From Pseudomonadota bacterium (GTDB taxonomy: Bacteria; Bdellovibrionota_C; UBA2361; OMIW01): DNA of 26,741 nt. The notes below the pieces were generated by a model that was not told the origin of the DNA, did not search any database, and saw only the letters and a program-made list of their open reading frames with translations. Each line of letters starts with the position of its first letter. The stretch's first letter is position 1. The stretch spans positions 1 through 26,741 of the forward strand of contig OMIW01000161.1 of assembly GCA_900299205.1 (NCBI GenBank), written 5' to 3'. Shown here one piece after another: positions 17,756-25,079 of this stretch. The position numbers and the translations under genes are program-made.

Positions 17756-18910
17756 TTATCCGAAAAATCGCAAAACTCGCCCGACCAGTGAGCCTCTCGG
17801 TGGGGCGTGGGCCGCATGAGAGAACAAACTCATAAGCCCTATCCTTGCCGCTGCCGGCAGCACCGTTCTTCCGAGCGTTGAACCCATCATCATAACGGTC
17901 ATCCGCGTGAATCCACGCATGTCCCGGACCGCGTTCTCTCTCTCGAGCGCATACCGATGCAACTCTCCTTCCAGCGGAGTACCTCCAAGAGCACGCCCAA
18001 CACACTCCGCAGCTATCCTCCCCGATAGGAGCGCGTGGGTCATTCCGAAGCCTCCACTCGGATCGAGGGCCTCACAGGCATCCCCAACGAGGAACGCACC
18101 ACCAATTTCACTACCCCGATAGCCTGAGTTAATTGGGCCTGCCCCCAGAGGCGTACCGATCGATTTCCACTTAAGCCCCGCCAATAGTGGCACACGTTCC
18201 AACAGATTCCGAATGTAATCGACATGACTGGCACGCTGCACGAGCTCTCTCATTCCCAAAACTGAAATGTTACATCGCCCATCGAGGAGGGGTGTGATGT
18301 ATACCTCTCCTCCGGTAACAAGCACAACGGTGACGAAAGGTCGCAGTGAGCCAGCCGTTATGCGCCACGCCGAGCTCGACCCATAGCGAGGATTTACCAC
18401 GGTGGGAGTCGTAAGCCCTAGCAACCGAGCGCTCCGAGAGTTCACACCATCGGCGATGATGAGAAACTCACTCATCGCCGAACCTCCTGTCCACGCCACC
18501 TCGAAGCCCCCACAGCGGCGGGTGATAGATGATAATGCAGCTCCACTTTGAAGACTCACCCCCTCACAGCGAAGAGCCTGACGGAGGACAAGATCATCTA
18601 TTTTCTCCCGAGGTACACCGATTAAACCTCCCGAATCCGCTACTTCGATAACCTTTCCTCGGTATTCGATATGATATCCACCAACTTCACGGCCTATTGA
18701 CCGAAGCTCCGCAGATGAAACTCCCAACCTCTCCAGCTCAGACCGTCCTCGAGCGGATAGCCCCTCCCCACAAGGCTTTCTCCTCGGAAATATTGCTTTA
18801 TCTAGCAGCAATACCGACGCCCCCCGTCTTCCCAACTCTATCGCTGCCGCTGCTCCCGCGAGCGATGCACCCACGATAATCACTGATGGCGAAAAAGCAT
18901 GATTTCTCAT
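17756..18910 (-). CDS. FAD-dependent oxidoreductase, geranylgeranyl reductase-like
   Basis: A flavoprotein of 384 residues with an N-terminal Rossmann motif (VIIVGASLAGAAAAIELGRRG, 10-30, the first two of the usual three glycines in place), PRRKPCGEGLS (42-52) as in geranylgeranyl reductase-type enzymes, IADGVNSRSARLLG (152-165), and the second FAD motif GDACEALDPSGGFGM (276-290). In phenolic lipid operons a FAD enzyme hydroxylates the resorcinol ring to give a hydroquinone or quinone; a reductase role on an isoprenoid chain is the alternative. The start codon overlaps the methyltransferase stop (ATGA at 18907-18910), implying coupled translation. It is last in the four-gene operon. Confidence 0.88.
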   Translation of the reverse strand: MRNHAFSPSVIIVGASLAGAAAAIELGRRGASVLLLDKAIFPRRKPCGEGLSARGRSELERLGVSSAELRSIGREVGGYHIEYRGKVIEVADSGGLIGVPREKIDDLVLRQALRCEGVSLQSGAALSSITRRCGGFEVAWTGGSAMSEFLIIADGVNSRSARLLGLTTPTVVNPRYGSSSAWRITAGSLRPFVTVVLVTGGEVYITPLLDGRCNISVLGMRELVQRASHVDYIRNLLERVPLLAGLKWKSIGTPLGAGPINSGYRGSEIGGAFLVGDACEALDPSGGFGMTHALLSGRIAAECVGRALGGTPLEGELHRYALERENAVRDMRGFTRMTVMMMGSTLGRTVLPAAARIGLMSLFSHAAHAPPRGSLVGRVLRFFG

Positions 18911-19503
18911 GCGTTGACCGAGCGCCTCAGGGAGGGGAGAAACCGCGGCTTATGTCCCATCACCTCTCGATATCCCGGTACAGCAAACAGGGACTTTTCC
19001 TCTAAGTCTATGCGACGGCGCAGGAGAAGCCCGTTGATCGCGGTGAAGAATACCGCTGTCACTGGCGCTCCTCCGGCGATGGGCAGGCTTAATAACTCCA
19101 CCATGACCACCAGATAATTTGGGTGTCGGATGAAATGATAGGGACCTTTATCTACAAACGATCCCTCGACACCGCCGTTCGTGTAGACCGAGACATTCCA
19201 GAACTTTCCGAGCGTTATGAGCGTCCACCCGCGAAGCGCCTGTATCGCCACAAAAATAGTGAGTGCACCCATTCGGAGAGGAACCCAGATAGCAGCAGAA
19301 AAAAAAGTTGCCTCAATGATCAGTGCGACAAACCACCCTACATGCATGAGGATCATCGCGCTCATACCCAGCGGTGTTTCACTTTCAGCGAATCCCCGAG
19401 CTTTCATGACAACTTGATTCCGCCTCGACACAACGACCTCAATCAGCCGCTCAAGCGCGCAATAACCGAAAAGGAGCCTGAATAGAAAAATCACCGATGG
19501 CAC
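18907..19503 (-). CDS. ICMT-type membrane methyltransferase of the polyketide operon
   Basis: This is an integral membrane methyltransferase of 198 residues in the isoprenylcysteine carboxyl methyltransferase superfamily. Four to five hydrophobic segments are seen. The SAM-binding C-terminal part has FIRHPNYLVV (124-133) and RRRIDLEEKSL (162-172) with the conserved Glu pair, followed by a GYREVM segment. Homologues next to type III polyketide synthases (SrsB, BpsB) O-methylate alkylresorcinols or alkylpyrones, so that role is inferred here. It starts at GTG 19503 with AGGTGA upstream, overlapping the end of the synthase gene by 13 bp, and its stop overlaps the FAD gene by 4 bp. Confidence 0.88.
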   Translation of the reverse strand: MPSVIFLFRLLFGYCALERLIEVVVSRRNQVVMKARGFAESETPLGMSAMILMHVGWFVALIIEATFFSAAIWVPLRMGALTIFVAIQALRGWTLITLGKFWNVSVYTNGGVEGSFVDKGPYHFIRHPNYLVVMVELLSLPIAGGAPVTAVFFTAINGLLLRRRIDLEEKSLFAVPGYREVMGHKPRFLPSLRRSVNA

Positions 19504-20534
19504 CTCAATAGATTCACCTGGAGGGTCAATCCTGGGCCAATACCAAGCATGAGCACGAGATCTCCGGGACGATAAGACCGCTCATCGACAAACGATTTTA
19601 GTGCGTAGAGAATCGACGCTGACGACATATTCCCGTTCTCTCGAAGAGAGTCCCACGCCCACTTCGTCTGCTCTCGTCGCAGCTCAAAAGTCCCCTCCAA
19701 GCTTGACAGGATCTTGGCTCCACCAGGATGAAATATCCACCACTTGATATCACTTGAGCTGAGGTCGAGAGAGCCCAAAAATTCCGAGATACAGCGCGGC
19801 GCTGCCTCAAGGAGCGCATGCGGTATCTCGCGATCAAGGTGCAGATGGGGGCCATCGTCGTGAATGGCGTAACCCATCAGATCCCCCGTCTGCGGGATGA
19901 GATATGACTGACAGCTGACCACCTCCAACGGCCCGGGTCGCTCGGATACCACCACCGCCGCGGCACCATCGCCAAATATGGCCGCCCCCACAATGGCTCC
20001 CCCCTGAAGGTCATTCGGCTGATGAACCAGAGAACACAGCTCGACAGACGCCAGCATCGTATATCCGTTTCTCTGAGAGAGCCTTTGCGCCAACGACAGT
20101 CCGATTGCTCCTCCCGCGCACCCATACTGAAATATTGGAACCCGAAGTATTGCAGGCGATAACCCAACCTCTGCGATCGCGAGGGTGTCAATTGACGGAA
20201 TGCTCGGAACAGAGCAAGAGGTCATCAGAAGTGTATGAAGGTCCAAGGGTTCTAACCCGCTGGCATCTATGCCACCCCTTATTACCTTTGAGAGCATCGC
20301 TGCACCAACCTCGTTGAATATTTTAGCTCGCTCCCGTGGACCCGCGAGCCCTATCAACTCCTGAAGAGGTACCGCGAACGCCCTCTGCTCAATTTGGGTT
20401 GAGGCGCTTAACCTCTTGAAGAGGGATCGCTCCATCGGAGAAGAGGCAAGCCAGGCACCCGCAGCCTGGGTAATTGCGTCTGTTGAATAGTGGTATGGGG
20501 CTTTCTCCGTCACTATGGCGTTGATGAAGGTCAT
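19491..20534 (-). CDS. Type III polyketide synthase (alkylresorcinol/alkylpyrone synthase-like)
   Basis: This homodimeric condensing enzyme would extend an acyl-CoA starter with malonyl-CoA and cyclise the chain to a resorcinol or pyrone. The triad is intact: Cys139 in QYGCAGGA, His269 in IFHPGGAKIL and Asn302 in NGNMSSAS. FGDGAAA (187-193) and the loop GIGPGLTLQ (331-339) are also family marks. I chose ATG 20534 (347 aa) over a frame opening at 20639, because AAGGAG sits 8 nt upstream and the longer form would run back into yceI. It begins 5 bp after the yceI stop. The length fits bacterial enzymes. Product class is inferred from the neighbouring methyltransferase and FAD enzyme. Confidence 0.94.
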   Translation of the reverse strand: MTFINAIVTEKAPYHYSTDAITQAAGAWLASSPMERSLFKRLSASTQIEQRAFAVPLQELIGLAGPRERAKIFNEVGAAMLSKVIRGGIDASGLEPLDLHTLLMTSCSVPSIPSIDTLAIAEVGLSPAILRVPIFQYGCAGGAIGLSLAQRLSQRNGYTMLASVELCSLVHQPNDLQGGAIVGAAIFGDGAAAVVVSERPGPLEVVSCQSYLIPQTGDLMGYAIHDDGPHLHLDREIPHALLEAAPRCISEFLGSLDLSSSDIKWWIFHPGGAKILSSLEGTFELRREQTKWAWDSLRENGNMSSASILYALKSFVDERSYRPGDLVLMLGIGPGLTLQVNLLRCHR

Positions 20535-20539
20535 GGGTG

Positions 20540-21136
20540 TCACTCCTTCTTTGGAATCGTTGTTTGGTACGAAATAGTCACGAGAGGGTCTAACCGAGCT
20601 ACCAGGATAGATGGGTCCTCGACATGAAAGTCTTTCCACCGAGTCGTGAAGGCCCCTGCAACTCGATATCCAAGTGGGGTGTCTTGAATTGAGATAGGCA
20701 GCGATACCTTCTTGGTTACATCTCGAATGGTGAGCATGCCACTGAGCGTACCTTGGCAGCTGCCTTTCGTGGCGATCACTGCAGGCTCACACTCCTCACT
20801 CAATCTCTGCGACACAAAGTGAACATCTGGAAATGCCTCCGCCGCCATCACCTCGCGCAGACGATCATCCCGGAGTTCTGAATCAGTATCGAAAAACTTA
20901 ACCGGCACTCTCAGATCCACCACTACTGAGAGCCGATCTTTGGAATCGTCGAGGCGAACACTTCCTGAGATATTTTTTGTGGTCCCTCGTACCGTGTGCC
21001 ACGTCGAATCAACCGAAAACATGACACTCGTATTTTTGTCATTCAAATCCGTCGGCACATCCCATGTTTCGGAACGAGCTGTGTTGCTCAAGACAACACA
21101 GAAAACCGCCCAAATAATGGAAGAAAAGCGAAGCAT
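20540..21136 (-). CDS. YceI-family lipid/isoprenoid-binding protein
   Basis: A periplasmic or exported lipocalin-like protein of 198 residues. Residues 1-22 (MLRFSSIIWAVFCVVLSNTA) form a signal peptide with cleavage near RS|ETW. The YceI beta-barrel shows FSVDSTWHTVRGTTKNISG, then DDRLREVMAAEAFPDVHFVS, which matches the family motif near the R-x-x-x-L-x-x-x-x-FP region, and LTIRDVTKKVSLPI. Known members bind long polyprenyl chains or fatty amides. A frame opens at 21196, but ATG 21136 gives a clean signal peptide. It is first in the operon and ends 5 bp before the synthase, so it could carry the phenolic or isoprenoid lipid product or precursor. Confidence 0.9.
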   Translation of the reverse strand: MLRFSSIIWAVFCVVLSNTARSETWDVPTDLNDKNTSVMFSVDSTWHTVRGTTKNISGSVRLDDSKDRLSVVVDLRVPVKFFDTDSELRDDRLREVMAAEAFPDVHFVSQRLSEECEPAVIATKGSCQGTLSGMLTIRDVTKKVSLPISIQDTPLGYRVAGAFTTRWKDFHVEDPSILVARLDPLVTISYQTTIPKKE

Positions 21137-21355
21137 GTTCACGACGATCACCCCCACGTTGATACGACCAATCCGATTAAGACCAGCATGGATCATCTAC
21201 CTGGAGAGCACCAGTATCACAGACGCTTCATCCCATAGAAATATCAGCACCCAATAGTTGGGAAGCAGGAGTCAACTCTCCTCATACGACCTGCTATCTC
21301 GGCAGCCCTCAGACATAACTTTTACTCCCGACCCGACGGTGATAGTATCGAAAGC

Positions 21356-22156
21356 ATGCTCGTCTTCAATCATTCCCGCTCCCCTCATTATCGAGTCAAG
21401 CTTCTTGCTCTGATATGGGGCGTCGTATCGCTCTTAAGTTTTTTTGCCGCTGTATCGGCGATGGCTATCGGGCTGCATGGGGAGATGACAGGTCTTTTTC
21501 CGTTCAAAACGCTACGATGGGGAGTCGTCTGGGATTGCTTTATCACGCTTCTTTTTCCGGTGCTGCACTCGCTGCTTTTGAGCAATAAGGGGCGTCGTTG
21601 TTTGGCATCTCTTGTTCCTGGGGAAACGGGGCGACACCTCGTTACCACAACCTTCGTCATAATTGCCTCTCTCCAATTAATTGCGCTCTTTTTGCTCTGG
21701 TCTCACCTCGGAAGAAGCGAATGGACACCTCCGACAACGATAAGACCTCTCTGGGAGTTGTTGTACCTTCTCTCTTGGGTCCTGCTTACGGTGGCTATGG
21801 TAAAGGCGGGGCTTGGAATCCAAATGGGGCTTCTCGGGTGGACGTCGGTACTAAGAGGAAAACCACCGCACTATCCATCATTCCCGACTGGTGGGCTCTA
21901 TACTGTGTGCCGTCACCCCGTGTACTTTGCCATGGCTCTGGTATCCTGCACCGGGCCAGTATGGAATATCGATCATGCGATTATCGCCCTGATTTTTACC
22001 TTCTACTGTGTCGTGGGACCACTTTTGAAGGAGCGGCGACTTGTGAAGCAGTTTGGCACACCGTTTCTTGAATACCGCCAGCGCACCCCATTTTTTCCTA
22101 CGCCGCGCTCTCTGACCCGTGCCCTGAATCGTGATAAGTGGCCTTCATTGTCCTGA
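21356..22156 (+). CDS. ICMT/NnrU-like membrane methyltransferase
   Basis: A 266-residue membrane protein with about six hydrophobic segments. The C-terminal third carries the SAM-binding features of the ICMT/MddA superfamily: GGLYTVCRHPVYFAMAL (179-195) and KERRLVKQFGTPFLEYRQR (225-243). Its substrate is unknown; relatives methylate thiols, isoprenylcysteine or lipid hydroxyls. It differs strongly from the shorter ICMT-type enzyme in the neighbouring polyketide operon, so this is not a recent duplication. It is divergent from yceI with a 219-bp gap and lies upstream of the ligase-nitroreductase gene, which has its own likely promoter. ATG 21356 has only a weak GAAAG upstream. Confidence 0.85.
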   Translation: MLVFNHSRSPHYRVKLLALIWGVVSLLSFFAAVSAMAIGLHGEMTGLFPFKTLRWGVVWDCFITLLFPVLHSLLLSNKGRRCLASLVPGETGRHLVTTTFVIIASLQLIALFLLWSHLGRSEWTPPTTIRPLWELLYLLSWVLLTVAMVKAGLGIQMGLLGWTSVLRGKPPHYPSFPTGGLYTVCRHPVYFAMALVSCTGPVWNIDHAIIALIFTFYCVVGPLLKERRLVKQFGTPFLEYRQRTPFFPTPRSLTRALNRDKWPSLS

Positions 22157-22373: not shown

Positions 22374-25079
22374 ATGACTCTTTCCCAGAGTCCCTTCGTT
22401 GCTCGTCGTAACGAAAACCCTCTCCATTCTCATCGATTTGGGGTTCGATTGGTGTTGAGGATGCTGAACAGAGTGATGCGAGAGTACTTCTATCTCTTTC
22501 TGCTCCGGTCAGGTCTCTCCGCTATAGCTCCGGTACAGATATGGGTTTCCGAACAGCTTGCTGTCCTAGAAGCAAGTCGGGCATACCGGCGGGTTCCTGC
22601 GTACAGGTCGTTCGTTAATCATGCGTTGGGTGTGAGAGGGATTACTAAAGACCTTCGTTTCAGTGATCTTCCGGAGACGTCTAAAGACACCTACATCAAG
22701 CCAGCGATTATCACACGGCCACACGATCTCTTCGTAGACGGGACAATTCCCTCGCACTCCGCGTGGGATACCTCCACTGGCACCAGTGGCCGACCCACTT
22801 CTTGGTACCGTGGTCCGCGCGAGGTAAATGGCTCCTATCGACTCCTGCTACACCGCTCTCGCGTGATGATTGGAGAGGTCCCATTTATCTTCATTAACGG
22901 GTTCGCTCTTGGACAGTGGGCGACAGGAATGACAGCCGCTCGTGCTGTCGGCCATGCTCCGCTTGCTATTGCTCACAACGTCGGTGCCAATCCGTCGTTG
23001 ATACTGCAATTGATTCAGGAATCATGGACCCTATTTCCTGGTCGTCTCGTCGTGGTCGCTGGATACCCGCCTCACATGGAGCAGGTCGTTCAGCTGGCTC
23101 GAGAGATGAATATTCCACTCCAAAATAACCCAGTGATGGCAGTTGTTGGTGGAGAGGCGATGTCTGAAGTACAACGTAGTCGGATAACCGCGCAGCGCGA
23201 TTCAAACGGTACCACTTTTGGCTTCCAAGAGGTGTTTTCCTTCTATGGAGCCAGCGATATCGACATCAATATCGGGATCGAAACTGCGTACACAAAGGCT
23301 CTTCGCTCGGTATTGATTGAGAGTCCTTCAATCGCTCGCGAACTATTCGGTACAAACGTCCCGTTTATACCGATGATATTTGCCTTTGATCCACTGTGTC
23401 ATTACATAGAGGTCAACGAGCACGGGGAATTGGTCTATACCGAGTTATCCGGGGATCGAATCTCGCCGCGAGTCCGCTACAACCTAGGCGATAAAGGAAT
23501 GGTTCGGCAATTCTCTGAAGTTGAGTCAATTCTCAGGTCTGCAGGCATCAACATTCCCCTTCCTGCAGGCTGTCGCACTCCCGTCGTATTTGTCTGGGGT
23601 CGGGTAGAGGATGGCGTAACATTTCGAGGTGCAAATCTCGCATGGGAGAATCTCCACGAAGCGATACGTCGGCTCAAACTGATAGAGCACGTTCAGGCTT
23701 TTGGGATTGCTCAGCATGAAGCCGAAGGCCGAGTCCTTACAGACCTTCTCCTTCACATACCTGACCCGCAGGTCGCTGACGCTTTTACGGAAGATGGCCC
23801 CGGGTTCCTCAAACGGATTATTGATGAGCTCTGGGAGCTCAATCAGGACTTCCGCTATCAGGTTCAATGGGTGACTGACCCAGCGGACCTTCCGCGGCTC
23901 CGACTGTACCTGAGTGATTCGCCAATGGCTAAACATGTCCGGGAGAATCCGGCACGGAAGCAAAAGCATGTATTCCTGGGAAAAGATGCGGAAGAGACTC
24001 TCTTCGTAGATGGTGGTGGACACCTTATCGAGATGATTGGTCACACCTCAAATACAATTGAAGTGACACCCCCTGCAACGAACCTTCGCGATGTTTGGGA
24101 ATCTATCCTCTCGGTAGCCCGTCACTGCCCAAGCCCCCACAATGTTCAGCCCTGGTGTTTGAATATTGACCAAGATGGAGGCGCTGAGCTGTATATCGAT
24201 GGAGGGCGCACCCTGCCCTTCGCGGATTCGACGGGTAGTTTTGTGCTGAGCGCCATGGCGATGTTCCTGAGCTATCTTGAAGCGTCGGCTCAAAACCGAG
24301 GGTTCATGCTTACAAGCCAGGTGGAAGACGTTTCCGAAATGGATCTGACTGCCCACCGTCCCTTGTTCGCTTCGCTGCGGCTCGAGTATCGTCCCGAGTT
24401 GGGTCCCTCTCGATTTTCCGACGCAGACTTGATTCGCAGAAAGACCTCCCGGAAGCCGAGCCTCAAACGCTCGGTATCCGCCGATGTGCTGCGGAGCATC
24501 GAAGATCTGGTTGCAGGTTACGGCTACGAGATGAAGGTGGTGAATGAGCAGGCCGAGATTAGCCATATTTTGATGGCTGACATCAAGGCACTCTTTGCCG
24601 ACATCGGTGATCCCCGCTACTTTGGCGAACTCAAGCCTTGGCTGAGACTCGGCGACAAGAGGTATTGTCGGGATGGATTGCATTACACAGTGATGAATCT
24701 TCCACCGCCTCTCTACGCTTTCATGAAGCGGTTCCCTCAAGCCGTTAGTGTTACCGGATTAGCTCCGATTTTGAGCCAGATTTACCGTGCTCAGCTCGGC
24801 CATTGTGAGCACATCGCAATTATCTCTGGGAAGTTCTGGGAACGGGAAGACTCTCTACGGGCCGGAAGGATGCTGATTGACATGTGGCTAACTCTCAGCG
24901 GCCACAACATCTTCATTCATCCCTTCGGTAATCTAGTGACCAACCTTTCCGCACGATCTGAAGTCGAGTCAAAGACCGGAGTTCAGGGGATGTGGTTTGT
25001 TTGTCGCCTCGGCTATACCGACGAACCCGAACCGAGTAATCGGCTCGCGATTTCCGAAATCGCCACTTTTGTCGGCTAG
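22374..25079 (+). CDS. PaaK-like adenylate-forming ligase fused to a nitroreductase-like domain
   Basis: A two-domain protein of 901 residues. The first part (about 60-520) is an adenylate-forming enzyme like phenylacetate-CoA ligase: phosphate-binding loop STGTSGRPT (134-142), YGASDID (291-297), RYNLGDKG (368-375), and hinge region GRVEDGVTFRGANL (409-422). The second part (about 570-890) resembles flavin-dependent nitroreductases: ARHCPSPHNVQPW (582-594), a basic RRKTSRKP (688-695), and a C-terminal Gly-rich SGHNIFIHPFGN region. A charged linker (520-565) joins them. Nothing indicates a frameshift; the frame is open throughout. It may activate an aromatic or acyl acid and reduce it or the conjugate. 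Facing the phenolic lipid operon, it could supply or modify a starter; this is inference. The exact substrate is unknown. Confidence 0.85.
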   Translation: MTLSQSPFVARRNENPLHSHRFGVRLVLRMLNRVMREYFYLFLLRSGLSAIAPVQIWVSEQLAVLEASRAYRRVPAYRSFVNHALGVRGITKDLRFSDLPETSKDTYIKPAIITRPHDLFVDGTIPSHSAWDTSTGTSGRPTSWYRGPREVNGSYRLLLHRSRVMIGEVPFIFINGFALGQWATGMTAARAVGHAPLAIAHNVGANPSLILQLIQESWTLFPGRLVVVAGYPPHMEQVVQLAREMNIPLQNNPVMAVVGGEAMSEVQRSRITAQRDSNGTTFGFQEVFSFYGASDIDINIGIETAYTKALRSVLIESPSIARELFGTNVPFIPMIFAFDPLCHYIEVNEHGELVYTELSGDRISPRVRYNLGDKGMVRQFSEVESILRSAGINIPLPAGCRTPVVFVWGRVEDGVTFRGANLAWENLHEAIRRLKLIEHVQAFGIAQHEAEGRVLTDLLLHIPDPQVADAFTEDGPGFLKRIIDELWELNQDFRYQVQWVTDPADLPRLRLYLSDSPMAKHVRENPARKQKHVFLGKDAEETLFVDGGGHLIEMIGHTSNTIEVTPPATNLRDVWESILSVARHCPSPHNVQPWCLNIDQDGGAELYIDGGRTLPFADSTGSFVLSAMAMFLSYLEASAQNRGFMLTSQVEDVSEMDLTAHRPLFASLRLEYRPELGPSRFSDADLIRRKTSRKPSLKRSVSADVLRSIEDLVAGYGYEMKVVNEQAEISHILMADIKALFADIGDPRYFGELKPWLRLGDKRYCRDGLHYTVMNLPPPLYAFMKRFPQAVSVTGLAPILSQIYRAQLGHCEHIAIISGKFWEREDSLRAGRMLIDMWLTLSGHNIFIHPFGNLVTNLSARSEVESKTGVQGMWFVCRLGYTDEPEPSNRLAISEIATFVG

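Follow-up and report, generated by a model that had tools for sequence, protein, structure and literature searches.

The question raised by this locus is whether a single gene that joins an acid-activating enzyme to a flavoenzyme is real, and which reaction sequence its two halves would carry out. The gene lies on the plus strand (22374..25079) of the window, meaning the whole 26,741-nucleotide stretch of DNA analysed here. The original prediction described it as an adenylate-forming ligase fused to a nitroreductase-like domain, acting one after the other beside a type III polyketide operon. As predicted, the frame is uninterrupted: it starts with the ATG at 22374, ends with the stop codon at 25077-25079 and encodes 901 residues, with a PaaK-like ligase first and an Acg/FDO-type flavin oxidase domain second. 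A codon-usage score preferred frame 0 in nearly all 60-codon windows (with a small margin in a few) and also across the junction (residues 511-570), where frame 0 scored +0.07 vs -0.30 and -0.28 for the other frames. The two domains are connected by an interdomain linker of ~29 residues (23997..24083, plus strand), with coding-like codon usage and low pLDDT at residues 525-565. The stretch between 23942 and 24177 contains no Shine-Dalgarno-like motif and so gives no sign of an internal start at the junction; promoter and terminator scans gave results at or near chance level. The fusion is almost certainly a genuine single gene.

The fold of the first half was obtained from a separate AlphaFold2 model of the ligase half alone (mean pLDDT 84.8, pTM 0.82), which replaced the stretch 329-565 of the full-length model, poor there probably because of a mixed alignment. 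In this model the ligase domain (residues about 38-541; 22485..23996, plus strand) takes the PaaK fold, matching PaaK1 2Y27 with a VIA Z of 30.6 over 404 aligned residues (model range 42-540; Foldseek E 3e-18). Other PaaK-family AMP ligases (HCL, NatL2, AjiA1 and ClxA) gave Z values of 26-30 and the GH3 amide synthetases lower ones, and a PDB sequence search with a profile of the window protein and two homologues matched PaaK 2Y4O (E 2e-11). The P-loop and the A8-like segment were found where the original prediction had placed them, and the residues examined in both were either invariant in 76 relatives or conserved in 97-100% of them. The P-loop-like motif DTSTGTSG (D132-G139, 22767..22790) has D132, S134, G136 and G139 invariant, and the A8-like motif RYNLGD (R368-D373, 23475..23492) has Y369 and D373 invariant, with R368 at 97% and N370 at 99%. 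Also on the plus strand are an A5-like motif GASD (G292-A293-S294-D295, 23247..23258; G292, A293 and D295 invariant), a second A8-type element with invariant G409-R410 (23598..23603), which reads GR.D in the relatives vs GRVE in the window protein, so that their D412 is E412 here, and K529 (23958..23960), a lysine in 99% of relatives and, by analogy to ANL enzymes, a candidate C-terminal A10-type catalytic lysine.

Judged by its predicted fold and its P-loop, A5, A8 and A10-lysine motifs, the ligase half belongs to the PaaK-like branch of the adenylate-forming (ANL) superfamily. With PaaK phenylacetate-CoA ligase (2Y27, 2Y4O) it shares the fold over those 404 residues, the P-loop, the A5-like motif, RYN..D, GR and the C-terminal lysine, whereas identity in structural alignments is only 15-18% and the window protein has a larger C-terminal region and the fused FDO. 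It is a divergent member, which differs at about 30 strongly conserved positions while keeping the core catalytic motifs intact, and its substrate may therefore differ from that of its relatives. NatL2, AjiA1 and ClxA share the PaaK-family fold with the window ligase, and we know of no flavin partner for any of them; the substrates of NatL2 and ClxA are aryl compounds. In NatL2, acid activation ends not in a CoA thioester but in a benzoxazole, formed from the adenylate via an ester (PMC7204872).

The second half (residues about 571-900, with its end at 896-900; 24084..25073, plus strand) was modelled with a pLDDT of about 95-98 over most of its length in the full-length AlphaFold2 model. It matched Acg 2YMV both in structure (VIA Z 30.5, 300 residues) and in the PDB search with the same three-sequence profile (E 1.5e-13), and the NCBIfam model NF047509 (Acg/Rv3131 FMN oxidoreductase family) matched residues 578-896 with an E of 2e-33, under its curated cut-off. 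On this evidence the flavin half is a member of the Acg/FDO subgroup of the nitroreductase superfamily; it has a nitroreductase fold and is not a ligase extension. Together, the profiles and predicted structures make it nearly certain that the protein is a PaaK ligase plus an FDO, in line with the predicted domain order, although the Pfam search suggested for AMP-binding and Nitroreductase domains found neither half at E<=0.1. No description of a PaaK-nitroreductase fusion was found in the literature.

The layout resembles that of TrzS (Rv1355c), the N-acyl tryptazolone synthase of Mycobacterium tuberculosis and Mycobacterium smegmatis, in which a ThiF cyclase and an FDO in one chain carry out ATP-dependent cyclisation followed by O2-dependent desaturation (PMC12856293). 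Both proteins consist of an N-terminal ATP-dependent adenylating half, a flexible linker and a C-terminal Acg-like FDO, whose nearest solved fold in both cases is that of Acg 2YMV. In contrast, the adenylating half is of the ThiF/E1 type in TrzS and of the PaaK/ANL type in the window protein, two unrelated folds. The FDO signature SPHNVQPW (residues about 587-594; 24132..24155, plus strand) is present, with N590, Q592 and P593 invariant across ligase-linked FDOs, TrzS and FDO-B proteins, and H589 invariant across ligase-linked FDOs and FDO-B but replaced by G in TrzS; R689, R693, G831 and R878 are also kept. At R758, W838 and H849, TrzS has R, W and H or Q, whereas Acg-type FDOs most often have G, L and C. 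The best positional match to TrzS R540, itself uncertain, is D743, which is not conserved. In the FDO tree, the window protein grouped with the ligase-linked FDOs (99/92, 100/100), inside a 14-row set of them (100/100) and beside pairs from Phycisphaerae and Alphaproteobacteria, while the TrzS FDOs formed their own 100/100 clade and the Acg-type FDOs another. Acg (2YMV), Rv3131 and other FDO-B proteins share the fold and FMN-domain signature with the window flavin half, but they stand alone, have no ligase partner and fall in a separate clade. Membership of the TrzS/Rv1355c family was rejected, since the N-terminal half is PaaK-like rather than ThiF-type and the FDO lies outside the TrzS clade; the family model NF005901 matched the FDO half only (profile positions 370-651). 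By analogy, the window protein looks like a TrzS counterpart in which the ThiF half has been replaced by an unrelated PaaK-type ligase.

Homologues of both halves were recovered in a plasmid search. They were neighbours in Gemmatirosa kalamazoonensis (flavin gene first, with a 4-base ATGA start/stop overlap) and part of a tight run of ligase, ABM-like small protein, GNAT and flavin gene in Nonomuraea gerenzanensis; Pfam also missed the ligases of these two genomes. The window protein as a single query found no relative among the genome contigs, and a three-sequence profile found 181 ligase relatives, of which 80 were kept. With the window excluded, a flavin gene was close to the ligase in 41 of 82 loci (14 in the order flavin-ligase and 27 in the order ligase-flavin), a fraction biased by the three seed sequences, each of which contains the flavin domain or lies next to it. 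The unfused pair that the survey brought out was found in about ten phyla (among them Gemmatimonadota, Krumholzibacteriota, Planctomycetota, Pseudomonadota, Bacteroidota, Actinomycetota, Chloroflexota, Dormiibacterota and candidate-phyla bacteria), and a single-frame ligase-FDO fusion was found at none of the 82 other loci. Ligase searches of 45 genomes of the window's phylum found only the window genome, and viral contigs, phage records and PHROGs gave no match.

The paired genes mostly lie within about 140 bases, on one strand or in one gene run, with exceptions at L079 (opposite strand) and L066 (about 5 kb apart), and at some loci an ABM-like small protein, a GNAT or a RoxA-like cytochrome is encoded between them. 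Actinobacterial operons have the order ligase, ABM-like protein, GNAT and FDO, and the pairs of the window's own FDO subgroup are without GNAT. Further fusions tie the same parts together: a GNAT and an FDO share one frame adjoining the ligase in Nesterenkonia alba (L078:9902-12535), and an ABM-like small domain is fused to the ligase N-terminus in a Chloroflexia genome (L067:1044-3080). A RoxA-like cytochrome c gene lies between ligase and GNAT-FDO in a planctomycetotal locus (L047:9368-10831) and in one from Methylococcaceae (L050:9344-10774).

Ligase and FDO distance matrices for 35 pairs were strongly correlated (r = 0.95, or 0.89 when the Nonomuraea near-copies were thinned), and none of 5000 permutations reached either value, indicating a genuine functional pair. 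The recurrence of the two as separate neighbouring genes in many phyla suggests that they are probably consecutive pathway steps. The predicted action in sequence is supported by this co-occurrence and co-evolution outside the window, together with the TrzS layout (PMC12856293), and both halves very probably act in one pathway. The ligase can also work without the FDO, and for the ligase family oxidation is thus not a required step: 10 of the 11 genomes tested with FDO-less ligases had no such FDO anywhere, and none was found in the genomes of the chlamydial relatives L005, L006 and L007. The window ligase grouped with these chlamydial proteins in the ligase tree, a placement made uncertain by its very long branch. 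The chlamydial ligases (L005:502-2592, L006:7458-9518 and L007:145-2136) carry an N-terminal extension of ~110-180 residues that matched no Pfam family above cut-off. At L027, L031, L035 and L042 a large gene of one common family follows an FDO-less ligase; these are probably the MMPL-type lipid exporters that made up 4 of 71 sampled neighbours of such ligases.

Separate FDOs of Gemmatimonadota and Bacteroidota bear a twin-arginine-like (Tat-like) signal, whereas the Gemmatirosa ligase has none. Stand-alone FDOs with such a signal were seen at L003, L011, L013, L032, L044, L063 and L065, accompanied in Gemmatimonadota by a lipobox-like Cys. Judging from these signals, the separate FDO of the two phyla is probably exported, and would therefore act on a released product rather than on a ligase-bound intermediate. 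The window FDO, tied to its ligase, cannot be exported by itself.

For the reaction itself, the closest characterised parallels are TyzABC and TrzAS of M. tuberculosis and OxzAB of P. rubra. In these, an N-acyl amino acid is first made by an acyltransferase; a ThiF-type enzyme then closes an oxazolone ring with ATP, and an FDO desaturates it with O2 (PMC10404671, PMC12856293); TyzC is the FDO desaturase (PMC10404671). FDO desaturase and ATP-dependent cyclase are neighbours in Tyz (TyzB and TyzC, Rv2338c and Rv2337c) or fused in OxzB, as in the ligase-linked systems, the difference being a ThiF cyclase vs a PaaK-type ligase. No ThiF gene was found at the 82 ligase loci, and thus the PaaK-type ligase occupies the place of ThiF beside the FDO. 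Five free-standing ThiF genes tried as a means of placing TyzC-like proteins in the tree had no FDO beside them. A possible Tyz-type pair occurs in a further genome from the class of the window: a diverged FDO gene there faces a ThiF-like gene tail-to-tail (L002:1471-3437).

In the scheme that we favour, the PaaK-like half would use ATP to convert a carboxylic acid into an acyl-adenylate, as suggested by its family, fold and motifs. The activated acyl group would then be captured by an internal nucleophile (ring closure, e.g. to an oxazolone from an N-acyl amino acid) or an external one, and the FMN-binding FDO half would remove two hydrogens, with O2 as acceptor, to give an alpha,beta-unsaturated product. 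The scheme would parallel TrzS, TyzBC and OxzB, except that an ANL-type ligase would do the work of the ThiF-type cyclase. Activation, capture (perhaps by ring closure) and desaturation are favoured because of the TrzS parallel, the NatL2 benzoxazole precedent and the agreement of R758, W838 and H849 with TrzS, and such a two-step enzyme is, on balance, the best overall explanation. The original prediction, that the acid is activated and then reduced or oxidised, holds in outline as to order, whereas of its two outcomes oxidation (desaturation) is the likelier, because characterised Acg/FDO members are O2-dependent desaturases; by this analogy the FDO half probably desaturates rather than reduces.

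The GNAT acyltransferase of the actinobacterial four-gene run could make an N-acyl amino acid. No relative of TrzA, of FeeM or of that GNAT was found in the window genome, which is ~90% complete, acyltransferase families being diverse; since none was found and the possible match to R540 is not conserved, an oxazolone is only one possible product, and an N-acyl amino acid substrate with an oxazolone-like product is proposed tentatively. More speculative, and somewhat unlikely, is a second route to oxazolone-type (or related dehydro-acyl) products that needs no ThiF: a PaaK-type ligase would serve as cyclase in about ten phyla, including candidate-phyla bacteria, and the window protein would be the single-chain form, a PaaK-type counterpart of TrzS that arose independently.

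Alternatively, the ligase might form an acyl-CoA or amide and the flavin half might introduce an alpha,beta double bond into that thioester or amide with no ring closure, in a dehydro-lipid or dehydro-amino-acid route. The enzymes that match the ligase half best in structure, PaaK1 and HCL, do produce CoA thioesters (the GH3 amide synthetases being weaker matches), FDO-B proteins have been proposed as desaturases of other lipids (PMC10404671), and MMPL-type lipid exporters occur beside FDO-less ligases. However, characterised FDOs with an adenylating partner use N-acyl amino acids or their oxazolones, and the presence of a GNAT in many operons points to an N-acyl substrate, so that this route is considered unlikely.

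The predicted role in preparing a starter for, or modifying the product of, the type III polyketide operon gained no support except adjacency. The operon (17756-21196, minus strand) is divergent from the fusion gene, about 1.2 kb away, and encodes an FAD oxidoreductase, an ICMT-type methyltransferase, a type III PKS (a DpgA-like match under cut-off) and a YceI protein. It looks like an alkylresorcinol/hierridin-type operon, resembling those of Planctomycetota and the cyanobacterial hid operon (PMC10896814). Between the two, on the plus strand like the fusion gene and 217 bases ahead of it, an NnrU/MddA-like protein is encoded at 21356-22156 (MddA model 77 bits, cut-off 270). The ligase could activate a fatty or aryl acid for this PKS, with the flavin half oxidising starter or product, and a fatty acyl-AMP ligase feeding a type III PKS in Myxococcus xanthus, taken from a reference in PMC10896814, would be a precedent. 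Against this, the operon has its own FAD oxidoreductase, like the Planctomycetota and hid operons, which need no ligase (PMC10896814). Moreover, neither a type III PKS nor an ICMT relative was found at the other 82 ligase loci, whether or not these had an FDO, the only traces of the operon being a weak YceI-like ORF (L060) and a weak FAD-protein match (L066). As the operon does not accompany the ligase or the FDO elsewhere, starter supply or tailoring by the fusion protein is improbable.

A still smaller chance is given to the flavin half storing FMN or being catalytically silent, which would leave the fusion functionally a ligase only. Acg has been proposed to store flavin, and many ligase relatives operate without an FDO. 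The retained FDO signature residues and the tight co-evolution with the ligase argue against such a role, and the FDOs of TrzS and TyzC are active oxidases (PMC12856293, PMC10404671). Finally, although the fusion is known from a single draft metagenome-type genome of 206 contigs and the two are mostly separate genes elsewhere, a sequencing or assembly error that merged adjacent genes is highly improbable, given an in-frame linker with no stop or ribosome-binding-like site and two intact domains with their conserved motifs.

FDOs are a large, largely unassigned flavoenzyme group whose characterised members partner ThiF cyclases on N-acyl amino acids. Here the FDO partner is a PaaK-type ligase, in a layout clearly analogous to that of TrzS and outside the TrzS family; the fusion and the conserved gene pair, from a ligase/FDO family poorly covered by Pfam, point to a second, unrelated activating partner for these enzymes. 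The window fusion can also be set beside TrzS, for which it has been asked whether fusion fixes the order of cyclisation and desaturation. The gene pair yields a prediction on the role of such FDOs outside mycobacteria. Ligase and FDO probably catalyse successive steps of a little-known pathway, lipid- or amino-acid-derived, that resembles the making of oxazolones by Mycobacterium tuberculosis.
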